A stretch of 64,000 nt of DNA from Bacillota bacterium (lineage in GTDB: Bacteria > Bacillota > Syntrophomonadia > Syntrophomonadales > DTU052): assembly GCA_029781825.1 (NCBI GenBank), contig JAKOVY010000032.1, positions 23,438-87,437 of the forward strand, written 5' to 3'. A model generated the notes under the pieces. The model saw nothing but the letters and a program-made list of their open reading frames with translations, made no database searches and was not told the DNA's origin. This document shows positions 5,866 to 63,067 of this stretch, one piece after another. Each line of letters opens with the position of its first letter. The first letter of the stretch is position 1. The position numbers and the translations under genes were made by a program.

Positions 5866-6150
5866 TTGGCTCTTACGATTGAGGAAGTGGAACACGTTGC
5901 CCGTTTGGCTCGGTTAAGCCTGACAACTGCAGAAAAAGAAATGTATGCCCAGCAGCTCAGTTCGATTCTCGATTTTTTTGCGATGCTTAACCGCCTTCCC
6001 ACCGACGGGGTTGAACCGTTGGCCCACGTCCTTCCGCTTTTCAATGTTATGCGAGAAGACGAGGTCGGGCCTTCGCTGCCCCGGGATGAGGCTATAGCCA
6101 ACGCCGCTATCACTGAGGATGGGCAGTTCAAAGTACCGAGGATAGTTTAA
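5866..6150 (+). CDS. gatC: Asp/Glu-tRNA amidotransferase subunit C (copy 1)
   Basis: GatC is the small scaffold subunit that wraps around GatA and holds it to GatB in the GatCAB complex, which converts misacylated Glu-tRNA(Gln) or Asp-tRNA(Asn) to Gln-tRNA or Asn-tRNA. The 94 residues have the family pattern [15 protein letters not shown] at the N-terminus and DGVEPLAHV followed by MREDEVGPS in the middle. The start is TTG behind GGAGGGTTAGG. gatA begins 11 bases after the stop. It is the first gene of a gatC-gatA-gatB operon. Confidence 0.95.
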
Positions 6151-6161
6151 GGAGGACACCC

Positions 6162-7613
6162 TTGGAACTCTACCAGTATACTGTTCAGGAAATCGGAGAA
6201 ATGCTGGCGCGGCGGGAAATCAGTGCCAGGGAAGTCCTGGCCTCGTCAGCCGAGCGCATCGCCCGGGTTGAGAGCAAAATCCAGGCGTTCATAACTCTTA
6301 CCCTGGATGAGGCCGAGAAGACAGCAAGAGACCTGGATGCCCGGGATAAGATGGGGGGACTCGCGGGAATCCCCTGCGGCATCAAGGACAACCTTTGTAC
6401 CCGGGGAATCAGAACCACCTGTGCTTCGGAGATGCTGGAAAATTTCGTGCCTCCCTATGATGCCACGGTGGTGAAAAGACTTAAAGACGCCGGAGCGGTG
6501 ATGGTCGGCAAGTTGAATATGGATGAGTTCGCTATGGGATCCTCTACTGAGAACTCCGGATTTTTCCCCACCCACAATCCCTGGGACCTGACCCGGGTTC
6601 CGGGAGGGTCCTCGGGCGGAGCCGCCGCAGCCGTAGCGGCCGGAGAGGTTTATTATGCGCTGGCATCGGATACCGGCGGTTCCATAAGGCAGCCCGCTTC
6701 GTTCTGCGGGGTTGTGGGGATGAAGCCTACCTATGGACTGGTATCACGGTTCGGCCTGGTGGCCTTCGCCTCTTCCCTGGATCAGGTGGGCCCGATAACC
6801 AGGACGGTGACCGACTGTGCTCTGGTTATGAACGCCATCTGCGGCCATGACAGCATGGATTCCACCAGCCTGAAGGTTCCGGTTCCGGATTATACAGAAG
6901 ACATTCAGAAAGGGATCAAAGGCTTAAAGGTAGGTTATCCCCGGGAGTACTTCCAGGAAGGAGTGGACTGGGGAGTCAGAGATACCATAATGAAGGCTCT
7001 CCTTAAGTTTGAAGAACTGGGGGCGGTGGTGGAAGAGACCAGCCTCCCCCACAGCGAGTATGCGCTCCCGACTTATTACATCATTGCTCCATCCGAAGCC
7101 AGCTCCAACCTGGCTCGCTTCGACGGGGTAAGGTACGGCTACCGTGACGGGAACGCCCAGGATACGGTGGAGATGTTCAGCAGCACCCGGGCCCGGGGAT
7201 TCGGCCCCGAGGTTGTACGACGGGTGATGCTTGGGACCTATGCCTTGAGTTCCGGGTACTACGACGCCTACTACCTGAAGGCCCTAAAGGTGCGGCGTCT
7301 GATTAAGGAAGATTTCGACCGGGCGTTCGAGCGGTATGATATTCTGGTTTCTCCCACAACTACCTCGACTGCCTTCCGGATCGGCGAGAAGGCCGAGGAC
7401 CCTCTGACCATGTATATGTCGGATATGCTGACCATACCGGTGAACCTGGCAGGGATTCCTTCCATCTCGATCCCCGGGGGTTTTCTGGATAACCTGCCGG
7501 TGGGGCTGCAGCTCATGGGCCCTCCCCTGTCGGAAGTGACTCTTCTCAAGGCGGCCTATGCCTTCGAACAGGCTGCCGGTTACCACCTGCGCACACCCGT
7601 ACTGGAGGTATAA
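6162..7613 (+). CDS. gatA: Asp/Glu-tRNA amidotransferase subunit A (copy 1, catalytically intact)
   Basis: GatA is the glutaminase/amidase subunit that releases ammonia from glutamine and passes it to GatB. The protein has 483 residues, the normal size, and keeps the amidase-signature catalytic triad: Lys75 in GIPCGIKDN, the cis-Ser in PGGSSGGAA and the nucleophile Ser in TGGSIRQPA. The ENSGF segment and [15 protein letters not shown] of typical GatA are also present. The start is TTG behind AAGGAGG. It sits between gatC and gatB with short spacing. It contrasts with the second GatA in this window, which has lost Lys75. Confidence 0.96.
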
Positions 7614-7617
7614 ATAC

Positions 7618-9069
7618 ATGATAAACGCCGAATATGAGGCCGTTATCGGACTGGAAGTGCATGTTGAACTCAAGACCAGGTCCAAGGCCTTTTGCAGATG
7701 CGCCACCTCTTTCGGGGCTCAACCAAACACCCATGTATGCCCCATCTGTCTGGGAATGCCCGGGGTCTTGCCGGTTCTGAACCGGCAGATGGTGGAATTT
7801 GCACTGATGACTGCTCTGGCCTTAAAGTGCCGGCTGGCTGACTACTGCAAATTTGACCGAAAAAACTACTTCTACCCCGACCTGCCCAAGAACTACCAGA
7901 TTTCCCAGTATGACATGCCGATAGCCACCGGGGGCAGTCTGGTGATAGAAACCGAGAACGGCCCGCGAACTGTCGGCATCAACCGGGTGCATATGGAAGA
8001 GGATGCCGGGAAACTGGTTCACAAGGGCAGCATAATGACGACTCCCTATTCCCTGGTGGATCTGAACCGGGCCGGCACCCCCCTGCTGGAGATTGTATCC
8101 GAGCCTGATTTGCGTTCCCCCGCGGAAGCGCGGATGTATTTGGAACAGCTTCGTCTGATTCTTCTCTATCTGGGGGTATCCGACTGTAAGATGGAGGAGG
8201 GTTCCCTGCGCTGCGATGCCAACATTTCCGTAAGACCGAAGGGGCAGCGGCAACTGGGGACCAAGACGGAAATAAAGAACCTAAACTCATTCCGGGCCCT
8301 GGAGCGGGCCCTGGATTATGAGATCACGCGGCAGATCAAAGCCCTGGCCAAAGGTGAGCGTATAATTCAGGAGACCAGGACCTGGGATGAAGAAGAGCAG
8401 GTCACCATGAGCATGCGCTCCAAGGAGGAAGCCCATGACTACCGTTACTTCCCGGACCCGGACCTGCCTCCTTTACATATAGACCAGGCATGGGTGGAAA
8501 GGGTGTTCAAGAGCCTTCCCGAACTCCCCGAGCAGGCCCGCCGACGCCTGACGGAGGAATACCGCCTGAGTCGTTATGATGCCATTCTGCTCACCGCATC
8601 CAAGGATATCCTGGATTTCTTTGATGATTGTGTTGCTCGGTACCCCAAACCCAAGGTGGTTGCCAACTGGATCAACGGCGACCTGGCTCGGCTTCTGAAT
8701 CAGAGCAAGCTGGAGATCAGGGAAAGCAAGGTAACGCCTGCATTGCTGGTCGGTCTCTTCAGGCTTTTGGATGAGGGGACCATAAGCGGGAAAATCGCCA
8801 AAGCGGTATTGGAGGAGATGTTTAACACCGGTGAGCCCCCGGATAAGATTGTGAAGGAGCGGGGTCTGGTACAGATCACAGATGAGTCGGCCCTGCAAGC
8901 CTTGGTAAGAGAGGTTATTAACGAAAACCCCACGGTGGTGGATGACTATAAAAACGGAAAGGATAAGGCCCTGGGATTCCTGGTGGGTCAGGTTATGAAG
9001 GCCAGCAAAGGCAAAGCCAATCCGGAAGCGGTCAACCGACTCCTCAAGGAAGAGCTATCCCGCCGGTAA
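7618..9069 (+). CDS. gatB: Asp/Glu-tRNA amidotransferase subunit B (copy 1)
   Basis: GatB is the kinase and transamidase subunit that activates the side-chain carboxylate of the misacylated tRNA and binds the tRNA. It begins with [13 protein letters not shown], followed by the zinc-binding cysteines CRC and CPIC of the GatB cradle domain, [10 protein letters not shown], and the Yqey-like helical tail ending in [13 protein letters not shown]. The ORF track starts at 7558 inside gatA; the ATG at 7618, nine bases after GGAGG, gives the usual 483-residue protein and matches the second GatB. It ends before a hairpin shared with the convergent GGDEF gene. Confidence 0.96.
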
Positions 9070-9129: not shown

Positions 9130-9224
9130 CTTTGTTGTTATTTGAACAGTAATCAGAAAGTACGGTTACGGCAGGCGTTGGGGAAAATGACAGCTTTGTT
9201 GTTATTTGAACAGTGAACAGAAAG
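9130..9224. repeat. Short direct repeat of the GGDEF gene 3' end
   Basis: CTTTGTTGTTATTTGAACAGT occurs at 9130-9150 and again at 9194-9214, each followed by a near-identical CAGAAAG. The second copy encodes the C-terminus and stop of the minus-strand GGDEF/HD-GYP gene. The first lies downstream of it, so the gene end appears to have been duplicated by slippage or local recombination. Confidence 0.7.
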
Positions 9225-11757
9225 CGTCGATGACAACCGGATCGAACTGGGTCCCGGACTTGCGTTTCAATTCTTCCAGGGCCTCTTTCTCGCTGATGGA
9301 CTTCCGGTAAACCCTGTCGGTGGTCATGGCGTCGAACGCATCCACCACAGCGAGGATTCTGGATATCAGCGGAATTTCCTCTCCTTTCAACCCCCGGGGG
9401 TAGCCTTCACCATTCCAGTGTTCGTGATGAGAAAGAATGTATTCCGCTATAATCGATAGTTCGGGTGAGTTTTGGGCAATACGATAGCCGATTTCAGAGT
9501 GCCTTTTCATTTCCTCCCACTCACTTGGGGAGAGCGGACCGGGTTTTTGCAGTATGCTTTCCCTTACGGCTACCTTGCCGATATCGTGCAGCATGGCCAA
9601 AAGGGTCAAATTGTCAAGTTCATGCGGTGACAGCTTTAACATTCTGCCAACCAGGTTACAGTAATGCTCCAGCCGTTTGGCGTGTTCCTCGGTCTCCATG
9701 CTCTTCTCGAAAAGCGTTCCCAGGAGGGTGTTGATAATGGTGTTGCGGTGGCTTCTTCCCTCCAAAAGCTTGCGGTGATACATCCGTTCCTCGGCTTCCT
9801 TAATGATTTGCACCAGGCTTTCGTCCTGACTGGTCTTTACCGCACAGCCCAGCGAAACGTTCAGGCTCATATCCCCGACGGATTTGTCACGACAGCGGGC
9901 GGTTATCCTTTCCATTATCTCCTGTGCCTGTTCCGCTGTGGTGCAGGGCAGCATGATGAGAAACTCGTCTCCGCCCCAGCGAGCAATAATATCGCCGGGG
10001 CGGCAGCTCTCCTGCAATACCTCGGCCATGCTTTTCAAAAGTTCATCCCCCGCCTGGTGGCCAAACACATCATTGGTGAGTTTAAGACCGTTTACATCAC
10101 CCATGATCACCGCCAGCGGCAGTTGGAACGAGTTGTCCAGCCGCATCATTTCTTCTTCGATGAACCTGCGATTGTAAAGACCGGTGAGGTGATCGTGATA
10201 ACTGAGATAAAGGATTTGCTGCTGGTGTTCTTTTTCGATGCTGACATCGCGGAAAACCATTACTACACCAAATGTCTGCCCGTGCTCGTCCTTTATCGGG
10301 GCGGCACTGTCCGCGATCGGTATCGTACGTCCTTCTTTATTAATCAATACGGTGTGATTGGCTACACTGACAATGCTTCCAGTCTGCAGAGCTTTGGAGA
10401 TTGGATCTTCAATTTCTTGACCTGTTTCTTCATTCCGGAGTAAAAAAACATCGGTGAAATACCGATTTTTTGCTTCTTCGTTGGTCCAGCCCGTGATTTT
10501 TTCGGCTTCTCTGTTCAAAGCAGTTATCCTGCCTTCCAGATCGGTTGTAACCACCCCATCACCAATAGAAATGAGGGTGGTGCGCATCAATTCCTTTTCG
10601 CGATACAGGTGTTCTTTGTATTTCTCCCTATCGGTCACATCGAAAATGATGGAAAACATCAGGGGCTCTCCGTCCTGCTGCTCAATAAGGCTGGTATAAA
10701 CATCTACCAGCCTTATCTCACCGTTTTTCAAGCGGTGTGGAGTAATGAAATACCGCTGTTTTTCCCTTAACGCCATCAGGCGCAACTGTTCCACTTCTTC
10801 GTTGGGGAGCATGTTGATGTCCTGAATGCAGAGAGAGGTTAATTCCTCGCGGGAATAACCGTAAAAATCGCAGGCAGCAGGGTTGCTATCTACTATCCGG
10901 CCGGTTATTGGTTCAATCAAGAGCATGACGGCGGTATGTTCATAAAACATGCTCTCGAGGCGTCGCAGAAGTTGATTTCTTTCCCTTTCAGCCCGCTTTT
11001 GCTGGGTGATGTCCTTACAGAAACCAACCAGATACTGTACCTTTCCCTGCTCAAACACCGGTGTGAGGGTAGTCAGCCGAATCTTTTCCCCGGTAGGGAA
11101 GAAGAAGTTGTCCTCGTAAGTATGGGCTTTTCCCTCATTAACACATCGCCGGTAATTCTCAATCGATATCTTTGCGGCTTCTTCACCGAATATGTCTACC
11201 GGAGTTTTTCCTTTTATATCGGTTAGTCCCGTCAATTTCTGATGGGCTGCATTGTTTCTTATGTAACGGAACTCGCCATTTTTTACTTCTACCAAGAATA
11301 TTGCATCATGAGTGCTGTTAAAAATGATCTCCAGGTCCCTAAAGAGCGATTCTATTCTTGCCTTCTGGTGTTCCAGGAGCTTCATGTTTTCTACTTCCGA
11401 CGTGATATCCTGGAAGATTGCTGTACAAAACCCTCTTTCCTGCGAAAAGGCCGTAATTCGATACCAACGTCCCAAACAATCAAAATAGCTAGTAAACTCC
11501 TGCTTTTGTCCAGTTTGGGATATGTCGCCATAAAAAGTGATCCAATCAAAATCGGAGGACCTTATTTCGGGAATGATTTCAGTCACTCTTTTCCCCAGTA
11601 TCGTTTCCCGGTTTAACTTGGTAATCGTTTCAAAGAAGGGATTTACATCGCGAAATATCATGTCAATTGCCTTGTTTTGATCATCGAACACCAATTGATA
11701 ATGAACGTAACCAAAGGGTGCCAACCTGAGAAGCTCGACAGCAGAAGCCGACGTCAT
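9202..11757 (-). CDS. PAS-PAS-PAS-PAS-GGDEF-HD-GYP cyclic-di-GMP enzyme
   Basis: This soluble protein of about 851 residues has no membrane segments. It shows four PAS-like sensor domains in its first ~520 residues, then a GGDEF diguanylate cyclase domain with intact RWGGDEF and an upstream RPGD inhibitory site, then an HD-GYP phosphodiesterase with HDIGK and HHEHWNGEGYP. Both catalytic motifs look intact, so it could both make and break c-di-GMP in response to ligands or redox cues sensed by the PAS domains. The ORF track begins at 11799, but the ATG at 11757 directly follows GGGAGGGGGG and is preferred. It lies convergent to gatB copy 1 and divergent from gatC copy 2. Confidence 0.92.
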   Translation of the reverse strand: MTSASAVELLRLAPFGYVHYQLVFDDQNKAIDMIFRDVNPFFETITKLNRETILGKRVTEIIPEIRSSDFDWITFYGDISQTGQKQEFTSYFDCLGRWYRITAFSQERGFCTAIFQDITSEVENMKLLEHQKARIESLFRDLEIIFNSTHDAIFLVEVKNGEFRYIRNNAAHQKLTGLTDIKGKTPVDIFGEEAAKISIENYRRCVNEGKAHTYEDNFFFPTGEKIRLTTLTPVFEQGKVQYLVGFCKDITQQKRAERERNQLLRRLESMFYEHTAVMLLIEPITGRIVDSNPAACDFYGYSREELTSLCIQDINMLPNEEVEQLRLMALREKQRYFITPHRLKNGEIRLVDVYTSLIEQQDGEPLMFSIIFDVTDREKYKEHLYREKELMRTTLISIGDGVVTTDLEGRITALNREAEKITGWTNEEAKNRYFTDVFLLRNEETGQEIEDPISKALQTGSIVSVANHTVLINKEGRTIPIADSAAPIKDEHGQTFGVVMVFRDVSIEKEHQQQILYLSYHDHLTGLYNRRFIEEEMMRLDNSFQLPLAVIMGDVNGLKLTNDVFGHQAGDELLKSMAEVLQESCRPGDIIARWGGDEFLIMLPCTTAEQAQEIMERITARCRDKSVGDMSLNVSLGCAVKTSQDESLVQIIKEAEERMYHRKLLEGRSHRNTIINTLLGTLFEKSMETEEHAKRLEHYCNLVGRMLKLSPHELDNLTLLAMLHDIGKVAVRESILQKPGPLSPSEWEEMKRHSEIGYRIAQNSPELSIIAEYILSHHEHWNGEGYPRGLKGEEIPLISRILAVVDAFDAMTTDRVYRKSISEKEALEELKRKSGTQFDPVVIDAFCSLFK

Positions 11758-11986
11758 AAACAACCCCCCTCCCGAATTATCAACTTGCCAGACAACCAAA
11801 AAAAGGCCAGGTTTGACATGATTTTATTAAATGCGATGATAAATGGCAATAATGGCTTTGATGTTCTGTTATCTCGATCTGCACCCTGTATCCAAGTCCT
11901 CTGCCCCATATTTTGAAGATGCTCACTGTTATCCTATCCCGGAGGGCTTTTTCACTAGATTCTAGCAACCGGTTTGGCCTTTCTGA

Positions 11987-12029: not shown

Positions 12030-12314
12030 TTGGCTTTAACCGAAAAAGATGTTGAACGCCTGGCCGTTTTGGCTCGGATAAACCTAACTGCAGAAGAGAA
12101 GGAAACATTCGCCCGGCAGATGAATTCGATCCTGGATTCCGCTGCCGTGCTTGATGAACTGTCAACCGACCGGATAGAGCCGCTCATTTATGTCCTTTCT
12201 CGGCATAACGTGATGCGGGATGATAAGGTGCGTCCCTCCCTGACCAATAATGAAGCTCTGGCCAATGCCCCCCTTAAAGAGGATGCTATGTTCAAGGTGC
12301 CGAGATTAATATAA
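12030..12314 (+). CDS. gatC: GatC-like amidotransferase subunit (copy 2)
   Basis: This 94-residue protein has the same length as copy 1 and the same family pattern, EKDVERLAVLARINLT and DRIEPLIYV followed by MRDDKVRPS. The ORF track starts at 11913, but the TTG at 12030 follows GGGAGGAAAGG and matches the copy 1 start exactly. gatA copy 2 begins 13 bases after its stop behind AAGGAGG, the same layout as operon 1. It presumably scaffolds the second GatA/GatB pair. Confidence 0.92.
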   Translation: MALTEKDVERLAVLARINLTAEEKETFARQMNSILDSAAVLDELSTDRIEPLIYVLSRHNVMRDDKVRPSLTNNEALANAPLKEDAMFKVPRLI

Positions 12315-12327
12315 GGAGGAACCCCTG

Positions 12328-13764
12328 GTGAATCTCTACCAGTTAACCGTTCATAAAGCAGCAGAAATGTTGGCCCGACGGGAGATTAACGCCCAGGATA
12401 TTTTGGAATCCGTCTCCCGGCGGATTGACCTGGTTGAAGACAAGATCAAAGCCTTCATTACTCTTACCCTGACCCGGGCGGAAAAGGATGCAAAGGACCT
12501 TGACAGCCGTAGTGAAATCACGGGTCTTGCAGGAATCCCCTGTGGTGTGCAGGACAACCTCTGTACCAGGGGAGTAGCAACCACCTGTGCTTCGAAGATG
12601 CTGGAAGGCTTTGTTCCCCCATACGACGCCACGGCAGTTGGCAGGCTGAAGGCGGCGGGTGCCGTAATGGTGGGCAAGCTGAACATGGATGAGTTCGGTA
12701 TGGGGTGCTGTACCCAAAAGTCGGGCTTCCATCCCACGAGCAACCCCTGGGATCCAACCCGGGTTTCCGGCGGTTCCTCCGGGGGAGCAGCGGCTGCGGT
12801 AGCGGCCGGAGAGGTGTATTACGCCCTGGCTTCGGATACCGGCGGCAGTCTGAGACAGTCGGCCGCCTACTGTGGAGTGGTGGGGATGAGACCCACCTAC
12901 GGCCGGGTTTCCCGTTACGGCCTGGTAGCCGTAGCTTCATCGATGGATCAGGTGGGCCCGGTGACCAGAAACGTAACCGACTGTGCTCTGGTGCTGAACG
13001 TCATCTGTGGTTACGATGCTCTTGATTCCAACTGCCTGCAGGCGGAGGTGCCGGATTACCGGAATTACCTGGGAAGCAGCCTGAAAGGTATGAGGATTGG
13101 GTTCCCCCGCGAGTATTTTCAGGAGAACGTAGACGGACCCGTTAGAGATGCGGTAAAGAAAGCCCTTTTAAAATTTGAAGATCTGGGAGCCGTGGTGGAA
13201 GAGACCAGCCTTCCCCACAGCAGGTATGCCCTCCCCGTTTTCCGGTTGCTGGCATCGGCCGAAGCGAGCTCCAACATGTCCCGCTATGATGGCGTGAGGT
13301 ACGGTTACCGAGACGAAGAGGCTGAGGACATCGCAGAGATGATGAGCAGTTCTCGCGGTCGGGGCTTCGGACCTGAAGTGAAGCGCAACATACTGCTGGG
13401 AACTTATGTCCTGAGCAAGGAACAGTTTGATGATTACTATATGCGGGCTATGAAAGTACGGCGCCTGATCAAGGAAGACTTTGACCGGGCTTTTAAAAAA
13501 TATGATCTTCTGGTTTCGCCGGCTACGGTTGGGGTTGCTTTTCCCCGCGGTGAAAGGGATGAAGACCTGTCAGACATGCTCACCATACCGGCCAGCCTGG
13601 CCGGCATCCCGGCCATGTGCATCCCCGGGGGGATGGTAGACGGTCTGCCGGTGGGATTGCAGCTGATGGGTCCGGCGCTGGCGGAAGGAACGCTGCTTAA
13701 GGCCGCCTATGCCTTTGAGCAGGCTACAGATTACCATTTGCGCACACCCGTACTGGAGGTATAG
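12328..13764 (+). CDS. gatA: GatA paralog lacking the catalytic lysine (copy 2)
   Basis: This 478-residue GatA paralog is collinear with copy 1. The amidase-signature lysine is replaced: GIPCGIKDN in copy 1 reads GIPCGVQDN here, with codon CAG at 12550-12552 (Gln75). The cis-Ser (SGGSSGGAA) and nucleophile Ser (TGGSLRQSA) remain. Other normally fixed parts have also changed: TENSGF is now TQKSGF, the EVVRR of copy 1 reads EVKRN here, and SSGYYDAYY is now SKEQFDDYY. Loss of the lysine should abolish or strongly weaken glutamine hydrolysis, so the complex may use free ammonia, another amide, or have a structural role. The frame is clean, so this is not a decayed pseudogene. Start is GTG behind AAGGAGG. 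Confidence 0.9.
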   Translation: MNLYQLTVHKAAEMLARREINAQDILESVSRRIDLVEDKIKAFITLTLTRAEKDAKDLDSRSEITGLAGIPCGVQDNLCTRGVATTCASKMLEGFVPPYDATAVGRLKAAGAVMVGKLNMDEFGMGCCTQKSGFHPTSNPWDPTRVSGGSSGGAAAAVAAGEVYYALASDTGGSLRQSAAYCGVVGMRPTYGRVSRYGLVAVASSMDQVGPVTRNVTDCALVLNVICGYDALDSNCLQAEVPDYRNYLGSSLKGMRIGFPREYFQENVDGPVRDAVKKALLKFEDLGAVVEETSLPHSRYALPVFRLLASAEASSNMSRYDGVRYGYRDEEAEDIAEMMSSSRGRGFGPEVKRNILLGTYVLSKEQFDDYYMRAMKVRRLIKEDFDRAFKKYDLLVSPATVGVAFPRGERDEDLSDMLTIPASLAGIPAMCIPGGMVDGLPVGLQLMGPALAEGTLLKAAYAFEQATDYHLRTPVLEV

Positions 13765-13767
13765 ATC

Positions 13768-15216
13768 ATGACTGATAAATATGAAGCGGTAATAGGCCTG
13801 GAAGTGCACGTGGAACTGAAAACCAACACCAAGGCCTTCTGCGGCTGTGGACTTTCCTTTGGAGCTTTGCCCAACAGCCATGTATGTCCCGGCTGCCTGG
13901 GGATGCCCGGTGCCATACCGGTTCTTAACCGGGGACTGGTGGAGTACGCGATAAAAACGGGCCTGGCCTTGAACTGCAAAATCGCCGAGTACTGCCGGTT
14001 TGACCGTAAAAACTATTTTTACCCGGATCTGCCGGCGAACTACCAGATATCTCAACTCGATCTTCCCATTGCCAGTGCGGGGTACCTGGAGATTGAAGTC
14101 GAAGGGGAAAAGAAAAAGATCGGCATCAACCGGGTGCACATGGAAGAGGATGCAGGAAAGCTGGTGCATCAAGGCAGTATAATGACAACCCCCTATTCCC
14201 TGGTAGATTTGAACCGGGCGGGAACGCCGCTGCTGGAAATTGTCTCCGAGCCCGATATCAGGTCTCCTCGGGAAGCCTATCTGTATATGCAAAAACTGCG
14301 CTCGATCCTTTTGTTCCTTGGAGTTTCGGACTGCAAAATGGAAGAGGGGTCCCTGCGCTGTGACGCCAACGTATCGGTCAGACCTCGAGGCCAGGAAAAA
14401 TTGGGAACCAGGACCGAGATAAAGAATCTAAACTCCTTCCGTTCACTGGAACGGGCTGTGGATTACGAAATCAAGCGGCATATCGAGGTCCTGGAGGACG
14501 GTGGGGAACTGGTTCAGGAAACCCGCACCTGGGATGAGGACCGGCAGATCACCCTAAGCATGCGCTCCAAGGAAGAGGCTCAGGATTACAGGTACTTCCC
14601 GGATCCCGACCTGCCCCCCGTTATAATTGACCGGGAATGGATAGAAAATGTCCGCAAGACCCTGCCGGAACTTCCGGATCAGGCCCGCGAGCGCTTGATG
14701 ACCCGGCATAACCTGTCGTCGTATGATGCCAACATCCTTACTATGTCCAAGGATGTCCTGGACTTCTTCGATGCCTGTGTTGCCGAGTACAACGAACCCA
14801 AGTTGATTGCCAACTGGATTATGGGAGAACTGACCAGACTGCTAAACCAGAACAACATGGAGATCAAGGAGTGCAAGATTACTCCTTCATCCCTGGTGGA
14901 AATGCTGAGGCTTTTGGAACAGGGGACCATAAGCGGCAAGATTGCCAAAGTAGTCTTTGAAGAGATGTTCAACACCGGGGATGCGCCGGAGAAGATCGTG
15001 AAAGACCGGGGGCTGGTACAGATCTCGGATGAATCGGCCATAAAAGCGATAGTGGATGAAGTTATTGCCGGCAATCCAAAGGTAGTGGAGGATTATAAGA
15101 ACGGCAAAGGCAAGGCCCTCGGGTTCCTGGTGGGTCAGGTTATGAAAGCCAGCAAGGGCAAAGCCAACCCGGAAGTGGTCAACCGGCTCCTGATGGAGGA
15201 GCTGTCTCGCCCCTAA
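13768..15216 (+). CDS. gatB: GatB paralog (copy 2)
   Basis: This 482-residue protein is collinear with GatB copy 1. It keeps [13 protein letters not shown], the paired zinc cysteines (CGCG and CPGC), [21 protein letters not shown] and the tail [13 protein letters not shown]. Kinase and tRNA-binding parts therefore look functional, unlike the partner GatA. The ATG is preceded by TGGAGGTATAGATC. It is the last gene of the second operon; 273 bases follow before the citrate synthase-like gene. Confidence 0.93.
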
Positions 15217-15489: not shown

Positions 15490-16662
15490 TTGCCGATCAC
15501 TTCTACTGGAAAAGAATGGTTTTTGGAGGAGGGGGCCAAAGTCTATATTGTTGACACCACCTTGCGTGACGGGGAGCAGACCGCCGGAGTGGTTTTTTCC
15601 AATGAGGAAAAGATTCGGATCGCCAGGTATCTCGATGAGCTGGGGGTTGATCAGATCGAGGCCGGTATCCCGGTGATGGGCGGCGATGAAAAGAAGTGCA
15701 TCCGCGAAATTGTTGACATGGGCCTGAAAGCCAGCATTATGGCTTGGAATCGCGCGGTAATCAACGATATTAAAGAATCAATTGATTGCGGTGTTGATGC
15801 GGTTGCCATATCCATCTCGGCTTCGGATCTTCATATAGAGTATAAGCTGCAGACCACCCGGGAGGATGTCCTCAGGCGCATGGCGGACGCGGTCAAGTTT
15901 GCCAAGGACAAGGGGCTTTATGTATCAGTTAATGCCGAGGATGCTTCCCGTGCTCATATGGATTTTCTGGTCGAGTTTGCTCTCACTGCCAAACACTGCG
16001 GAGCCGATCGTCTCCGCTTCTGCGATACGGTGGGCATTCTTGATCCCCTGACCACTTACCGCAAGATCACCACGCTGGTCAACTCCGTGGGATTGGACAT
16101 AGAGATGCACACCCACAACGATTTCGGGCTGGCAACAGCCAATTCCCTGGCCGGGGTCTATGCCGGTGCCAGATATGTGGGGGTAACCATAAACGGTCTG
16201 GGAGAAAGAGCCGGAAACGCTTCCCTGCAGGAAGTGGTTATGGGATTAAAGCACCTTATGAAACTGGACTTAAGATTTAAGACCGAAATGTTCCGTGAAG
16301 TGGCGGAGTACGTGGCCAAGGCTTCAGGAAGAACCCTGTCTCCGGCTCATCCCATCGTGGGTACCAACATTTTTGCCCATGAATCCGGAATCCACGGTGA
16401 CGGGGTGCTGAAGAACCCCATGAACTATGAAGCCTTTTCGCCCCAGGAGGTGGGGCTGGAACGCCAAATCGTTATCGGCAAGCATTCGGGAACTAACGCG
16501 TTAAAAGCCAAGTTTATCGAGTATGAGATAGAACTCACCGACGAGCAGGCCAAGGATCTGCTGGCGTTGGTCAGAGCCAAGGCGATTGAACTGAAAAGGC
16601 CGCTGTTTGATAAAGAACTGGCAGCATTATATGAAACTTACATGAAGGGGAGAGAAAAGTAA
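15490..16662 (+). CDS. Re-citrate synthase or homocitrate synthase (LeuA/NifV family)
   Basis: This is a 390-residue DRE-TIM metallolyase that condenses acetyl-CoA with a 2-oxo acid. It has the metal/active-site motif DTTLRDGEQTAG near the N-terminus, the metal-binding MHTHNDFGLA, the NGLGERAGNA signature, and HESGIHGDGV. Closest in pattern are NifV-type homocitrate synthases and the Clostridium kluyveri-type Re-citrate synthase. The next genes are aconitase-type subunits and a clear isocitrate dehydrogenase, not a homoisocitrate dehydrogenase or nif genes, so citrate synthesis for 2-oxoglutarate is the better inference. The TTG start lies nine bases after AAAGGAG. The downstream gene starts directly after its stop codon. 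Confidence 0.8.
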   Translation: MPITSTGKEWFLEEGAKVYIVDTTLRDGEQTAGVVFSNEEKIRIARYLDELGVDQIEAGIPVMGGDEKKCIREIVDMGLKASIMAWNRAVINDIKESIDCGVDAVAISISASDLHIEYKLQTTREDVLRRMADAVKFAKDKGLYVSVNAEDASRAHMDFLVEFALTAKHCGADRLRFCDTVGILDPLTTYRKITTLVNSVGLDIEMHTHNDFGLATANSLAGVYAGARYVGVTINGLGERAGNASLQEVVMGLKHLMKLDLRFKTEMFREVAEYVAKASGRTLSPAHPIVGTNIFAHESGIHGDGVLKNPMNYEAFSPQEVGLERQIVIGKHSGTNALKAKFIEYEIELTDEQAKDLLALVRAKAIELKRPLFDKELAALYETYMKGREK

Positions 16663-17919
16663 TTGGGCAAGACAATCGCGGAAAAAATCCTGTCTATGAA
16701 GTCGGGTGTTGATGCCCGTGCCAACGACATTGTTATCGCCGATCTTGATTTTGTGATGGGGCAGGACGGGACCTCCCCCCTGGCCATACAGGCTTTTACC
16801 GAGATGGGAGGTCTTCGGGTTTTCGACCCCCGACGGGTGGCCATGGTCATTGATCACAGTGCTCCCAGCCCCCTGGAAGGGGTTTCTGCTCTCCATAAGA
16901 AGATGCGCGATTTTGCGGATCGTTATGGAGTTATGCTTTACGATATCGGGGACGGGGTCTGTCACCAACTGGTTCCGGAGAAGGGGCATGTAGCCCCTGG
17001 AACCCTGGTTATCGGGGCCGACAGCCATACCTGTACCTACGGGGCCCTGAATGCTTTTGCTACCGGGGTCGGTTCCACCGACCTGGCGGCAGGGATGATT
17101 TCCGGGAAGCTGTGGTTCAAGGTTCCCGAAACCTTTAAGTTTGTGCTCCATGGGGAACTGCCTCCGGGAGTGTTCTCCAAGGACCTCATCCTCTATCTTA
17201 TCGGGGATGTTACCGCCGATGGAGCGACTTACATGGCGGCGGAATACGTGGGAGAGGCCATCAGGGCTCTGTCAATGGAGGCTCGGTTTACCATCAGCAA
17301 TATGGCCATCGAGATGGGGGCCAAGGTGGGACTGATGGAGGCCGACGAGAAGACGGAAGCCTGGGTAAGAGAACACTCTTCCCTCCCCTATAATCCCGTA
17401 TTTGCCGATCCTGATGCGGTTTATGCTCAGGTAAGGGAGTATGACGTCAGCAAACTGGAACCTCAGGTGGCCAAGCCTCATACCGTTGACAATGTCTCCC
17501 CCATCGGAGAAGTGGCCGGCATTGAGGTTCAGCAGTGTGTAATCGGTACCTGCACCAACGGCAGGTTGGAAGACCTTCGTATTGCTGCCAAAATCCTGGA
17601 GGGGAAAAAGATTCATCCCCGCACCAGGTTGATTGTAGCCCCGGCTTCCCGTCAGGTTTTCCTGGATGCCATTCGGGAAGGGATTATCACCACCCTGGTG
17701 GAAGCGGGAGCAGCCATAGTCACCCCTGGCTGCGGTCCCTGTGTGGGAACTCACAACGGGGTGCCGTCGGACGGGGAAAATGTGATCGCCACCTCCAACC
17801 GGAACTTCAAGGGCCGCATGGGTAATAACAAGGCCTTCATATACCTGGGGTCACCGGCCACGGTGGCGGCCTCGGCGATTGCCGGGAAAATCAGCGACCC
17901 CAGAGAATACTGGAGGTAG
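16663..17919 (+). CDS. Aconitase / isopropylmalate isomerase-type large subunit
   Basis: This 418-residue protein is of the LeuC/homoaconitase type, a 4Fe-4S hydro-lyase large subunit. It has GADSHTCTYGALNAF, the cluster cysteine in QQCVIGTCTNGRLEDL and the second pair in TPGCGPCVGTHNG. In this operon, between a citrate synthase-like enzyme and isocitrate dehydrogenase, it most likely isomerises citrate to isocitrate together with the small subunit 10 bases downstream. It could also be a genuine LeuC. The start is TTG with GGGGAGAG upstream, immediately after the preceding stop. Confidence 0.85.
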   Translation: MGKTIAEKILSMKSGVDARANDIVIADLDFVMGQDGTSPLAIQAFTEMGGLRVFDPRRVAMVIDHSAPSPLEGVSALHKKMRDFADRYGVMLYDIGDGVCHQLVPEKGHVAPGTLVIGADSHTCTYGALNAFATGVGSTDLAAGMISGKLWFKVPETFKFVLHGELPPGVFSKDLILYLIGDVTADGATYMAAEYVGEAIRALSMEARFTISNMAIEMGAKVGLMEADEKTEAWVREHSSLPYNPVFADPDAVYAQVREYDVSKLEPQVAKPHTVDNVSPIGEVAGIEVQQCVIGTCTNGRLEDLRIAAKILEGKKIHPRTRLIVAPASRQVFLDAIREGIITTLVEAGAAIVTPGCGPCVGTHNGVPSDGENVIATSNRNFKGRMGNNKAFIYLGSPATVAASAIAGKISDPREYWR

Positions 17920-17929
17920 GTGAATAACA

Positions 17930-18430
17930 ATGAATTTCAGAGGCAAAGCTCACAAATTCGGCGATGATGTGAACACGGATTATATCATCTCAGGGCGCTA
18001 TAAGTTTAAGACCCTGGATATGAAGGAACTGGCCAAACACGTAATGGAAGACCTGGACCCCGATTTTTACTCCAAGCTTAACAAGGGTGACTTCATTGTC
18101 GCCGGCAAGAATTTTGGCTGCGGTTCCTCCAGAGAGCAGGCACCCCTGGCGATAATCAATGCCGATATCAGTGCGGTTATTGCCAAGTCCTTTGCCAGGA
18201 TTTTTTACCGCAATGCCATCAATACCGGTTTGCCGCTCCTGGAATGCGATACGGATCTGATAAACCCGGGAGATGAGCTGGAGGTCGATCTGGGCCGGGG
18301 AATAATACGAAACCTCACCCAGGATACGGAAATAAAAGTAACACCGCTGCCGCCCGTTATGCTGAAGATACTGTCCGAAGGCGGGCTGGTTGAGCACTTC
18401 AAAAAGCATGGAACCTTCAATTTGGAATAA
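17930..18430 (+). CDS. Aconitase / isopropylmalate isomerase-type small subunit
   Basis: This 166-residue swivel subunit is of the LeuD/HacB type. It has DDVNTDYIISGRY at the N-terminus and the substrate-recognition stretch KNFGCGSSREQAP. The YKFKTLDM loop after it would help choose between isopropylmalate, homocitrate and citrate, but I cannot assign the specificity by eye. It starts 10 bases after the large subunit, behind GGAGGTAGG. Confidence 0.86.
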   Translation: MNFRGKAHKFGDDVNTDYIISGRYKFKTLDMKELAKHVMEDLDPDFYSKLNKGDFIVAGKNFGCGSSREQAPLAIINADISAVIAKSFARIFYRNAINTGLPLLECDTDLINPGDELEVDLGRGIIRNLTQDTEIKVTPLPPVMLKILSEGGLVEHFKKHGTFNLE

Positions 18431-18450
18431 ACAGGTTGTGCAAACAGGGT

Positions 18451-18477
18451 GAAGCCGGGGGAATCTCCCCGGGCTTC
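18451..18477. other. Hairpin between aconitase small subunit and icd
   Basis: GAAGCC pairs with GGCTTC and GGGGA with TCCCC, separated by one mismatch and closed by a three-base loop. There is no T-run after it, so it may be a processing or stability element inside the operon rather than a terminator. Confidence 0.55.
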
Positions 18478-18504
18478 AAACATAATAAGCTGGAGGGCTG
18501 AAAC

Positions 18505-19782
18505 TTGGCATCGACAACGAATGGGCAGAGAATACAGATTGAAGACAATCAACTCAAGGTTCCCGACCACCCGGTAATTCCTTTCATTGAGGGCGATGGC
18601 ACCGGGCCCGATATTTGGGCAGCGGCTTCCCGAGTTTTGGACGCGGCCGTTGCCAAGGCTTATGGGGGCAAGAGGTCAATCGTCTGGAAGGAGGTCTTGG
18701 CCGGGGAAAAGGCCTTCAAAGAGACCGGAAGCTGGTTGCCGGATGAGACCCTGGAAACGATCCGGCATTACCTGGTTGCCATTAAGGGTCCTCTTACCAC
18801 CCCGGTGGGCGGCGGCATCCGTTCCCTCAATGTGGCCCTGCGGCAGGAGCTTGACCTGTATGCCTGCGTCCGCCCGGTTCGCTGGTTTAAAGGGGTTCCT
18901 TCCCCGGTGAAAAGGCCGTGGGACACGGATATGGTTATTTTCAGGGAGAATACCGAGGATATCTATGCCGGTATCGAATACCCCATGGGATCGGATGAGG
19001 TAAAAAAGCTCCTGAGATTCCTGCGCGAAGAAATGAAAGTCGACAAAATCAGATTTCCCAAAACTTCCGGCCTCGGCATCAAGCCGGTGTCCGAAGAAGG
19101 TTCCAAACGGCTGGTGCGGGCCGCCATACGGTATGCCATCAAGGAAGGTCGAAAGAGTGTAACCCTGGTTCACAAAGGCAACATCATGAAGTTTACCGAA
19201 GGAGCCTTCAAGCAGTGGGGTTACGAGGTGGCGGAGGAGGAATTCGGCGACATAGTTTTCACCTGGAACCAGTATGATCGCATCAAGGAAGAAAAGGGTG
19301 AGGATGCTGCCAACCAGGCCCAGAGGGAAGCCGAGGCCGAAGGCAGGATCATCGTCAAGGATGTTATTGCCGATATCTTCCTGCAGCAGATATTGACCCG
19401 GCCGCGGGAGTTCTCGGTGGTAGCGACCATGAATCTAAACGGCGACTATATCTCCGATGCCCTGGCCGCTCAGGTAGGGGGCATTGGCATAGCGCCGGGT
19501 GCCAACATCAATTACGAGACCGGTCACGCCATTTTTGAGGCCACTCACGGCACCGCTCCCAAATACGCCGGGCTCGACAAGGTAAATCCCTCCTCGGTGA
19601 TACTGTCGGGAGAGATGATGCTCCGCTATCTGGGTTGGGACGAAGCCGCTGCGCTGATAATCACAGCCCTGGAACGGACTATCGACCAGAAGATTGTGAC
19701 CTATGACTTTGCCCGCCTGATGGAAGGGGCCACCGAGGTCAAGTGCTCGCAGTTCGCAGATGAACTGATTAAGAATATGTAA
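18505..19782 (+). CDS. icd: NADP-dependent isocitrate dehydrogenase
   Basis: This 425-residue enzyme oxidises isocitrate to 2-oxoglutarate and CO2. It has the E. coli-type signature: [13 protein letters not shown] at the N-terminus, [14 protein letters not shown], the [15 protein letters not shown] loop and [18 protein letters not shown]. The Lys-Tyr of APKYAG are the residues that favour NADP in the E. coli enzyme. The start is TTG behind CTGGAGG. It closes the four-gene route to 2-oxoglutarate, and a terminator follows. Confidence 0.94.
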
Positions 19783-62989: not shown

Positions 62990-63067
62990 CGGGGTGTAGC
63001 GCAGTTTGGCTAGCGCGCCTGCCTTGGGAGCAGGAGGTCGAAGGTTCAAATCCTTTCACCCCGACCA
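62990..63067 (+). tRNA. tRNA-Pro (anticodon TGG)
   Basis: The acceptor arms CGGGGTG and CACCCCG pair over seven bases, followed by discriminator A and an encoded CCA. The anticodon stem CCTGC/GCAGG holds TGG at 63025-63027. The T loop is GGTTCAAATCC. Confidence 0.95.

Follow-up and report, generated by a model that had tools for sequence, protein, structure and literature searches.

GatCAB is regarded as an enzyme that depends on glutamine, in which an ammonia channel couples glutaminase to transamidase. The locus described here raises the question of what a bacterium does with a second, complete gatCAB operon, lying beside a normal one, when the GatA of the second operon appears to have lost the means of hydrolysing glutamine: whether that complex is decaying, shares its subunits with the first, has taken up another function, or still amidates tRNA using free ammonia.

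Two adjacent gatCAB operons

The window (the whole stretch of 64,000 nucleotides that was analysed) carries both operons on the forward strand. The first comprises gatC1 (5866..6150, identified by profile match), a canonical gatA1 (6162..7613) and gatB1 (7618..9069), whose start was placed at an internal ATG aligned with GatB2. The second is a full operon in which all three subunits score above curated cut-offs: gatC2 (12030..12314, 94 aa, TTG start; TIGR00135, 75 bits against a cut-off of 47, and alignment to gatC1), gatA2 (12328..13764, 478 aa, GTG start; TIGR00132 gatA, 556 bits against 481) and gatB2 (13768..15216, 482 aa; NF004012, 724 bits against 338), the last encoding an intact transamidase subunit. 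Between the operons, in this genome only, lies a signalling gene of GGDEF/HD type on the reverse strand (9202..11799; domain names PAS/GGDEF/HD assigned by reading), which is outside the gatCAB system.

The window genome (G000) was compared with three congeneric species (G001, G002 and G003) and with a member of the sister genus (G004). The operon gatC1A1B1 adjoins gatC2A2B2 in all four members of the genus, the G002 contig ending inside gatB1, and in G001 and G003 the gap between them is a few hundred bases and lacks the GGDEF/HD-type gene of the window genome. Upstream of the operons is ligA, wherever the contig extends that far; downstream in the genus are a NifV/Re-citrate-synthase-like gene and then aconitase-like genes. 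The window genes 3' of the second operon (15490-19782) encode a NifV/Re-citrate-synthase-like protein, aconitase-like large and small subunits and isocitrate dehydrogenase, and are likely to constitute a 2-oxoglutarate/glutamate route; the NifV-like and both aconitase-like genes keep their place beside gatCAB in each of the family's five genomes. A search for a T-box or other regulatory RNA at the gatCAB operons found none, the only regulatory RNA met in the course of it being a cobalamin riboswitch elsewhere, in L179. The sole tRNA gene within the window is that for tRNA-Pro (TGG; 62990-63067, forward strand).

The glutaminase site of GatA2

In yeast GatA the catalytic triad is S154-cisS130-K52, while R334 stabilises the carboxylate of glutamine and D418 its amide (PMC4027206). 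We mapped residues by HMMER alignment to Staphylococcus aureus GatA (2df4_A), and the equivalences with yeast are our own. A preliminary description of this DNA had reported that the catalytic Lys of the first GatA is Gln in the second, with both serines retained in a fully open frame, and the alignment bears this out. Lys75 of GatA1 (codon AAG) corresponds to Gln75 of GatA2 (codon CAG, 12550..12552), at the position of S. aureus K79, while Ser150 (12775..12777) falls on cis-Ser154 and Ser174 (12847..12849) on the nucleophile Ser178; the Ser-cisSer-Lys triad of GatA2 has thus lost its Lys and kept both Ser, and the forward frame is uninterrupted from 12328 to 13764.

Residues that contact glutamine are changed as well. 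Phe305-Arg306 (13240..13245), a change absent from the preliminary description, replace Y309-Y310 of S. aureus, the first of which we take to be the Tyr of the glutamine pocket. Asn354 (13387..13389) replaces R358, the carboxylate Arg (role from PMC4027206). This refines the earlier suggestion that the Arg pair of the motif EVVRR is altered: it is the second Arg that is lost, and the actual sequence in GatA2 is KRN. The motif SSGYYDAYY is indeed changed, to SKEQFDDYY, but the change in TENSGF says little, since that motif is not conserved in GatA (S. aureus has TETSYF).

A sequencing error at Gln75 was considered and rejected, as the same codon CAG is found in the assemblies of G000, G001 and G003, that is, in three of the four species of the genus, GatA2 of G002 having Lys. 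The species with Gln75 also share Asn at the equivalent of R358, where G002 retains Arg, and Phe has replaced Tyr309 in every one of the four GatA2 proteins. At the Asp425 position G000 and G003 still have Asp, and G001 and G002 have Gly. Measured against 135 comparison GatAs, GatA2 departs from the norm at 15 of 126 near-invariant positions and GatA1 at 3–5. The corresponding counts are 1 of 116 in GatB2, 0–2 of 116 in GatB1 and 0 of 9 in GatC2; the damage is thus limited to GatA2, and the GatB and GatC copies are as normal as they had first appeared. The surveyed primary GatAs retain the Lys, and of 111 other GatAs from public genomes 108 have its equivalent (Lys79); the remaining three belong to a second clade discussed below. 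Without this Lys, GatA2 also departs from the active hydrolases of the amidase-signature type. An AlphaFold model of GatA2, confident as a whole (mean pLDDT 86.6, pTM 0.90), superimposes on GatA structures with TM scores of 0.94–0.96, with low confidence at approximately residues 310-370, near the glutamine pocket.

Judged from these alignments, it is well supported that GatA2 has lost its glutaminase, the Lys and the glutamine-binding residues having gone together and across species. A Lys-to-Gln protein with both serines may have some residual activity; it is unlikely that the GatA of the second complex binds or hydrolyses glutamine normally.

Duplication history and selection

The sister genus has a single gatCAB at the same place, so the second operon is the product of a tandem duplication. 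A duplication within the genus and one before the split from G004 were not separated by AU tests (p = 0.118 for GatA and 0.444 for GatB). Among three species dN/dS was 0.082 for gatA1, 0.170 for gatA2, 0.154 for gatB1, 0.093 for gatB2, 0.151 for gatC1 and 0.126 for gatC2. The ratio of gatA2 to gatA1 is 2.1 (95% bootstrap interval 1.36–3.18), and the dN/dS of gatA2 itself has an upper limit of 0.22. Selection on GatA2 is relaxed, yet clearly purifying.

These values bear on whether GatA2 is simply a dying duplicate without function. Its amino acid sites evolve twice as fast as those of GatA1, and the losses look stepwise, G002 retaining the Lys and Arg but lacking Tyr309 and Asp425, both of which would fit slow decay. 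However, dN/dS is far below 1 even at its upper limit, the gene is full length and open in four species (for which reasons its identification as a pseudogene was rejected), the same Gln, Asn and Phe are kept in three species, GatB2 is constrained as much as GatA1, and GatA is maintained in this condition in a second order too. We consider decay very improbable.

It is harder to dispose of the idea that the two operons share subunits, such that GatA1 would supply the glutaminase and GatB2 and GatC2 the transamidase of mixed complexes, leaving GatA2 and GatB1 to drift. Constraint is reciprocal as this would predict, being tighter on GatA1 than on GatA2 and on GatB2 than on GatB1 (gatB1 to gatB2 ratio 1.66, 1.13–2.57; interaction 3.5, 2.0–6.3), and in G003 the two gatB genes are still exchanging sequence: the 3' end of gatB1 (L101, about 10670-10920) is far closer to its own gatB2 (0.85) than the other parts of the gene are, suggesting gene conversion. 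Once this converted 3' end of gatB is omitted, the gatB1 to gatB2 ratio falls to 1.4 (0.87–2.22), which weakens the strong version of reciprocal subunit loss. GatB1 moreover has few changes at near-invariant positions, GatA2 is itself still constrained, and in second-clade genomes, where the operons are not adjacent, the GatB of each is conserved. Sharing of subunits is therefore unlikely in our estimation, although clearly less so than decay.

A second clade with a degenerate GatA

The three GatAs without the Lys79 equivalent (L015, L028 and G396) belong to whole gatC-gatA-gatB operons, in which Lys is replaced by Ala, Ser or Gln and serines or binding residues are further lost, and each genome with an operon of this type also carries a normal GatCAB. 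In the order of G396, which is another order of Bacillota, the dead type occurs in 7 of 73 genomes, all of which have a second, normal GatA. Of nine second operons, eight encode a GatA with another residue in place of Lys (Q, Q, Q, N, N, S, S, A) and eight encode one whose nucleophile S178 has become D or G; Tyr309 is His in all nine. The dead GatAs of this order form a clade (100/100 support) apart from that of the window GatA2, so glutaminase appears to have been lost at least twice. Selection in this clade is similar in kind, with dN/dS of 0.115–0.21 for the dead GatA compared to 0.05–0.085 for the normal one (unsaturated or moderately saturated pairs) and 0.04–0.09 for the GatB of the dead operon, which is conserved as much as or more than the normal GatB; several pairs have dS > 1, and their values are rough.

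A DNA pattern for Gln at the Lys site, which detects Gln alone and leaves other Lys losses uncounted, matched only these cases in a 398-genome sample of the phylum, together with one of four matches (L130) that is not a GatA. The duplicate GatCABs of G013 and G052 keep the Lys, both Ser, Arg and Asp. The GatA of the second gatCAB of G013 (L134, 5065-6501) does carry Y309F and Y310L, and may represent an early step along the same route. In the region of the normal gatA of G446 (L139) the genome search gave one in-frame TAG, which probably sits at the edge of the match, the extracted alignment having no stop.

In the second clade GatB is altered too. The GatBs of L028, L137, L147 and L178-L183 carry L50T/A, P51G, D163E, Y276C, P278I/L/M and D281E at otherwise near-invariant sites (numbered by GatB2 of the window genome; the last three are not covered in L147), a pattern that suggests changed specificity. 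This resemblance to altered specificity rather than decay is one reason to ask whether the second complex has a new function, using another amide donor or carboxylate acceptor, regulating the first complex or sequestering misacylated tRNA. Another is the precedent of Tse8, a GatA-like protein without glutaminase activity that can bind GatCAB and interfere with it (PMC12283126). Window GatB2, however, has none of the replacement set (L50I only) and an active site that looks canonical, and no general gene neighbourhood common to the second-clade operons was found that would hint at a new pathway. We rate a new function as improbable to much the same degree as subunit sharing. Since window GatB2 lacks the replacements seen in the second clade, the two clades may differ in what they do.

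tRNA charging and asparagine supply

GlnRS is encoded in all 20 genomes surveyed, with and without a dead operon, and AsnRS in 19 of them; the window genome encodes both, so GatCAB is not strictly needed there to charge tRNA-Gln or tRNA-Asn. In a search that covered asparagine synthetases of the AsnB type, a full-length enzyme was absent from G000 (about 91% complete), G001 and G003, which are the genomes with Gln75, and present in G002 and G004. In the second clade AsnB is found in 5 of 9 genomes, so an association between its absence and a dead GatA is not general. At the two positions that separate the ND-AspRS of Pseudomonas aeruginosa from the enzymes of Escherichia coli and Thermus thermophilus, and which we take to decide the non-discriminating type, the AspRS of the window genome has His and Gly, as in the ND type.

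A proposed ammonia-dependent complex

The preliminary description had left the function of the second complex between free ammonia, another donor and a role other than tRNA amidation. GatB2 is intact and strongly constrained, which favours either free ammonia or the sharing of GatA1, the latter not having been among the original options. Our preferred reading is that GatCAB2 is a tandem duplicate whose GatA, no longer able to hydrolyse glutamine, is kept as a structural partner while GatB2 amidates with free ammonia, and we would put its chances of being correct at about even.

Under this proposal duplication of gatCAB would have produced a second complex, GatCAB1 remaining the glutamine-dependent enzyme, and GatA2 would have become a non-hydrolysing scaffold. 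In known GatCAB structures GatB and GatC need GatA for assembly, and GatA2 is probably kept for assembly with them. The complex would still bind ATP and a misacylated tRNA, most likely Asp-tRNA-Asn from the putatively ND-type AspRS and/or Glu-tRNA-Gln, and GatB2 would amidate it with ammonia arriving directly or via the channel. GatCAB2 would then be the tRNA-bound counterpart of the ammonia-dependent asparagine synthetase AsnA. Uncoupling of this kind has a precedent in yeast GatFAB, where truncation of GatF disturbs the GatA site, lowering glutamine-dependent activity and raising NH4Cl-dependent transamidation (PMC4027206), and some NAD synthetases use ammonia only (PMC3376133).

More tentatively, glutaminase-dead GatCABs could constitute a recurrent, selected, glutamine-independent class that arose two or more times among anaerobic Bacillota, beside a normal GatCAB, with altered acceptor specificity in the GatB of the second clade; we are doubtful of this wider claim, though less so than of subunit sharing or a new function. 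If it is true, these would be naturally uncoupled GatCABs maintained by selection, implying that the transamidase can live on the free ammonia of the cell; they would offer ready-made mutants for studies of channel coupling and an analogue, on tRNA, of asparagine synthesis from ammonia, and annotation as GatCAB would be no guarantee of glutamine use.

Comparison with known systems

Our search of the literature on duplicated or inactive GatCAB found no description of a glutaminase-dead second GatCAB. Clostridium acetobutylicum is likewise a bacterium with a duplicate GatCAB (Saad 2012, cited by PMC4206432); unlike there, a T-box sought at the window operon was not found. Bdellovibrio, Deinococcus and Thermus combine direct and indirect routes, as the window genome may do, and in the excerpts of PMC4206432 they are described with one GatCAB and glutaminase loss is not mentioned. 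The same excerpts propose that GatCAB makes Asn on tRNA in organisms without an Asn synthetase, and that in these three genera GatCAB and a non-discriminating AspRS form the asparagine-making route.

Ammonia-only NAD synthetase resembles the proposed GatCAB2 in being a synthetase without glutaminase, but there the glutaminase domain is wholly absent, probably ancestrally (PMC3376133), whereas GatCAB2 keeps the disabled subunit. Tse8, like GatA2, is a GatA-like protein without glutaminase activity and linked to GatCAB; unlike GatA2, it is a toxin secreted against other bacteria, shares 22% identity with P. aeruginosa GatA and is not encoded in a GatCAB operon (PMC12283126). With the GatCABs of S. 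aureus (2df4) and Aquifex aeolicus (3h0l), GatCAB2 has in common its gene order, subunits, fold, intact GatB and GatC and both serines of the triad, and it differs from them in a GatA that lacks the catalytic Lys, the carboxylate Arg and the pocket Tyr. In descent, subunit make-up and fold GatCAB2 therefore belongs with the GatCABs, but its glutaminase half departs from the catalytic features that define them.
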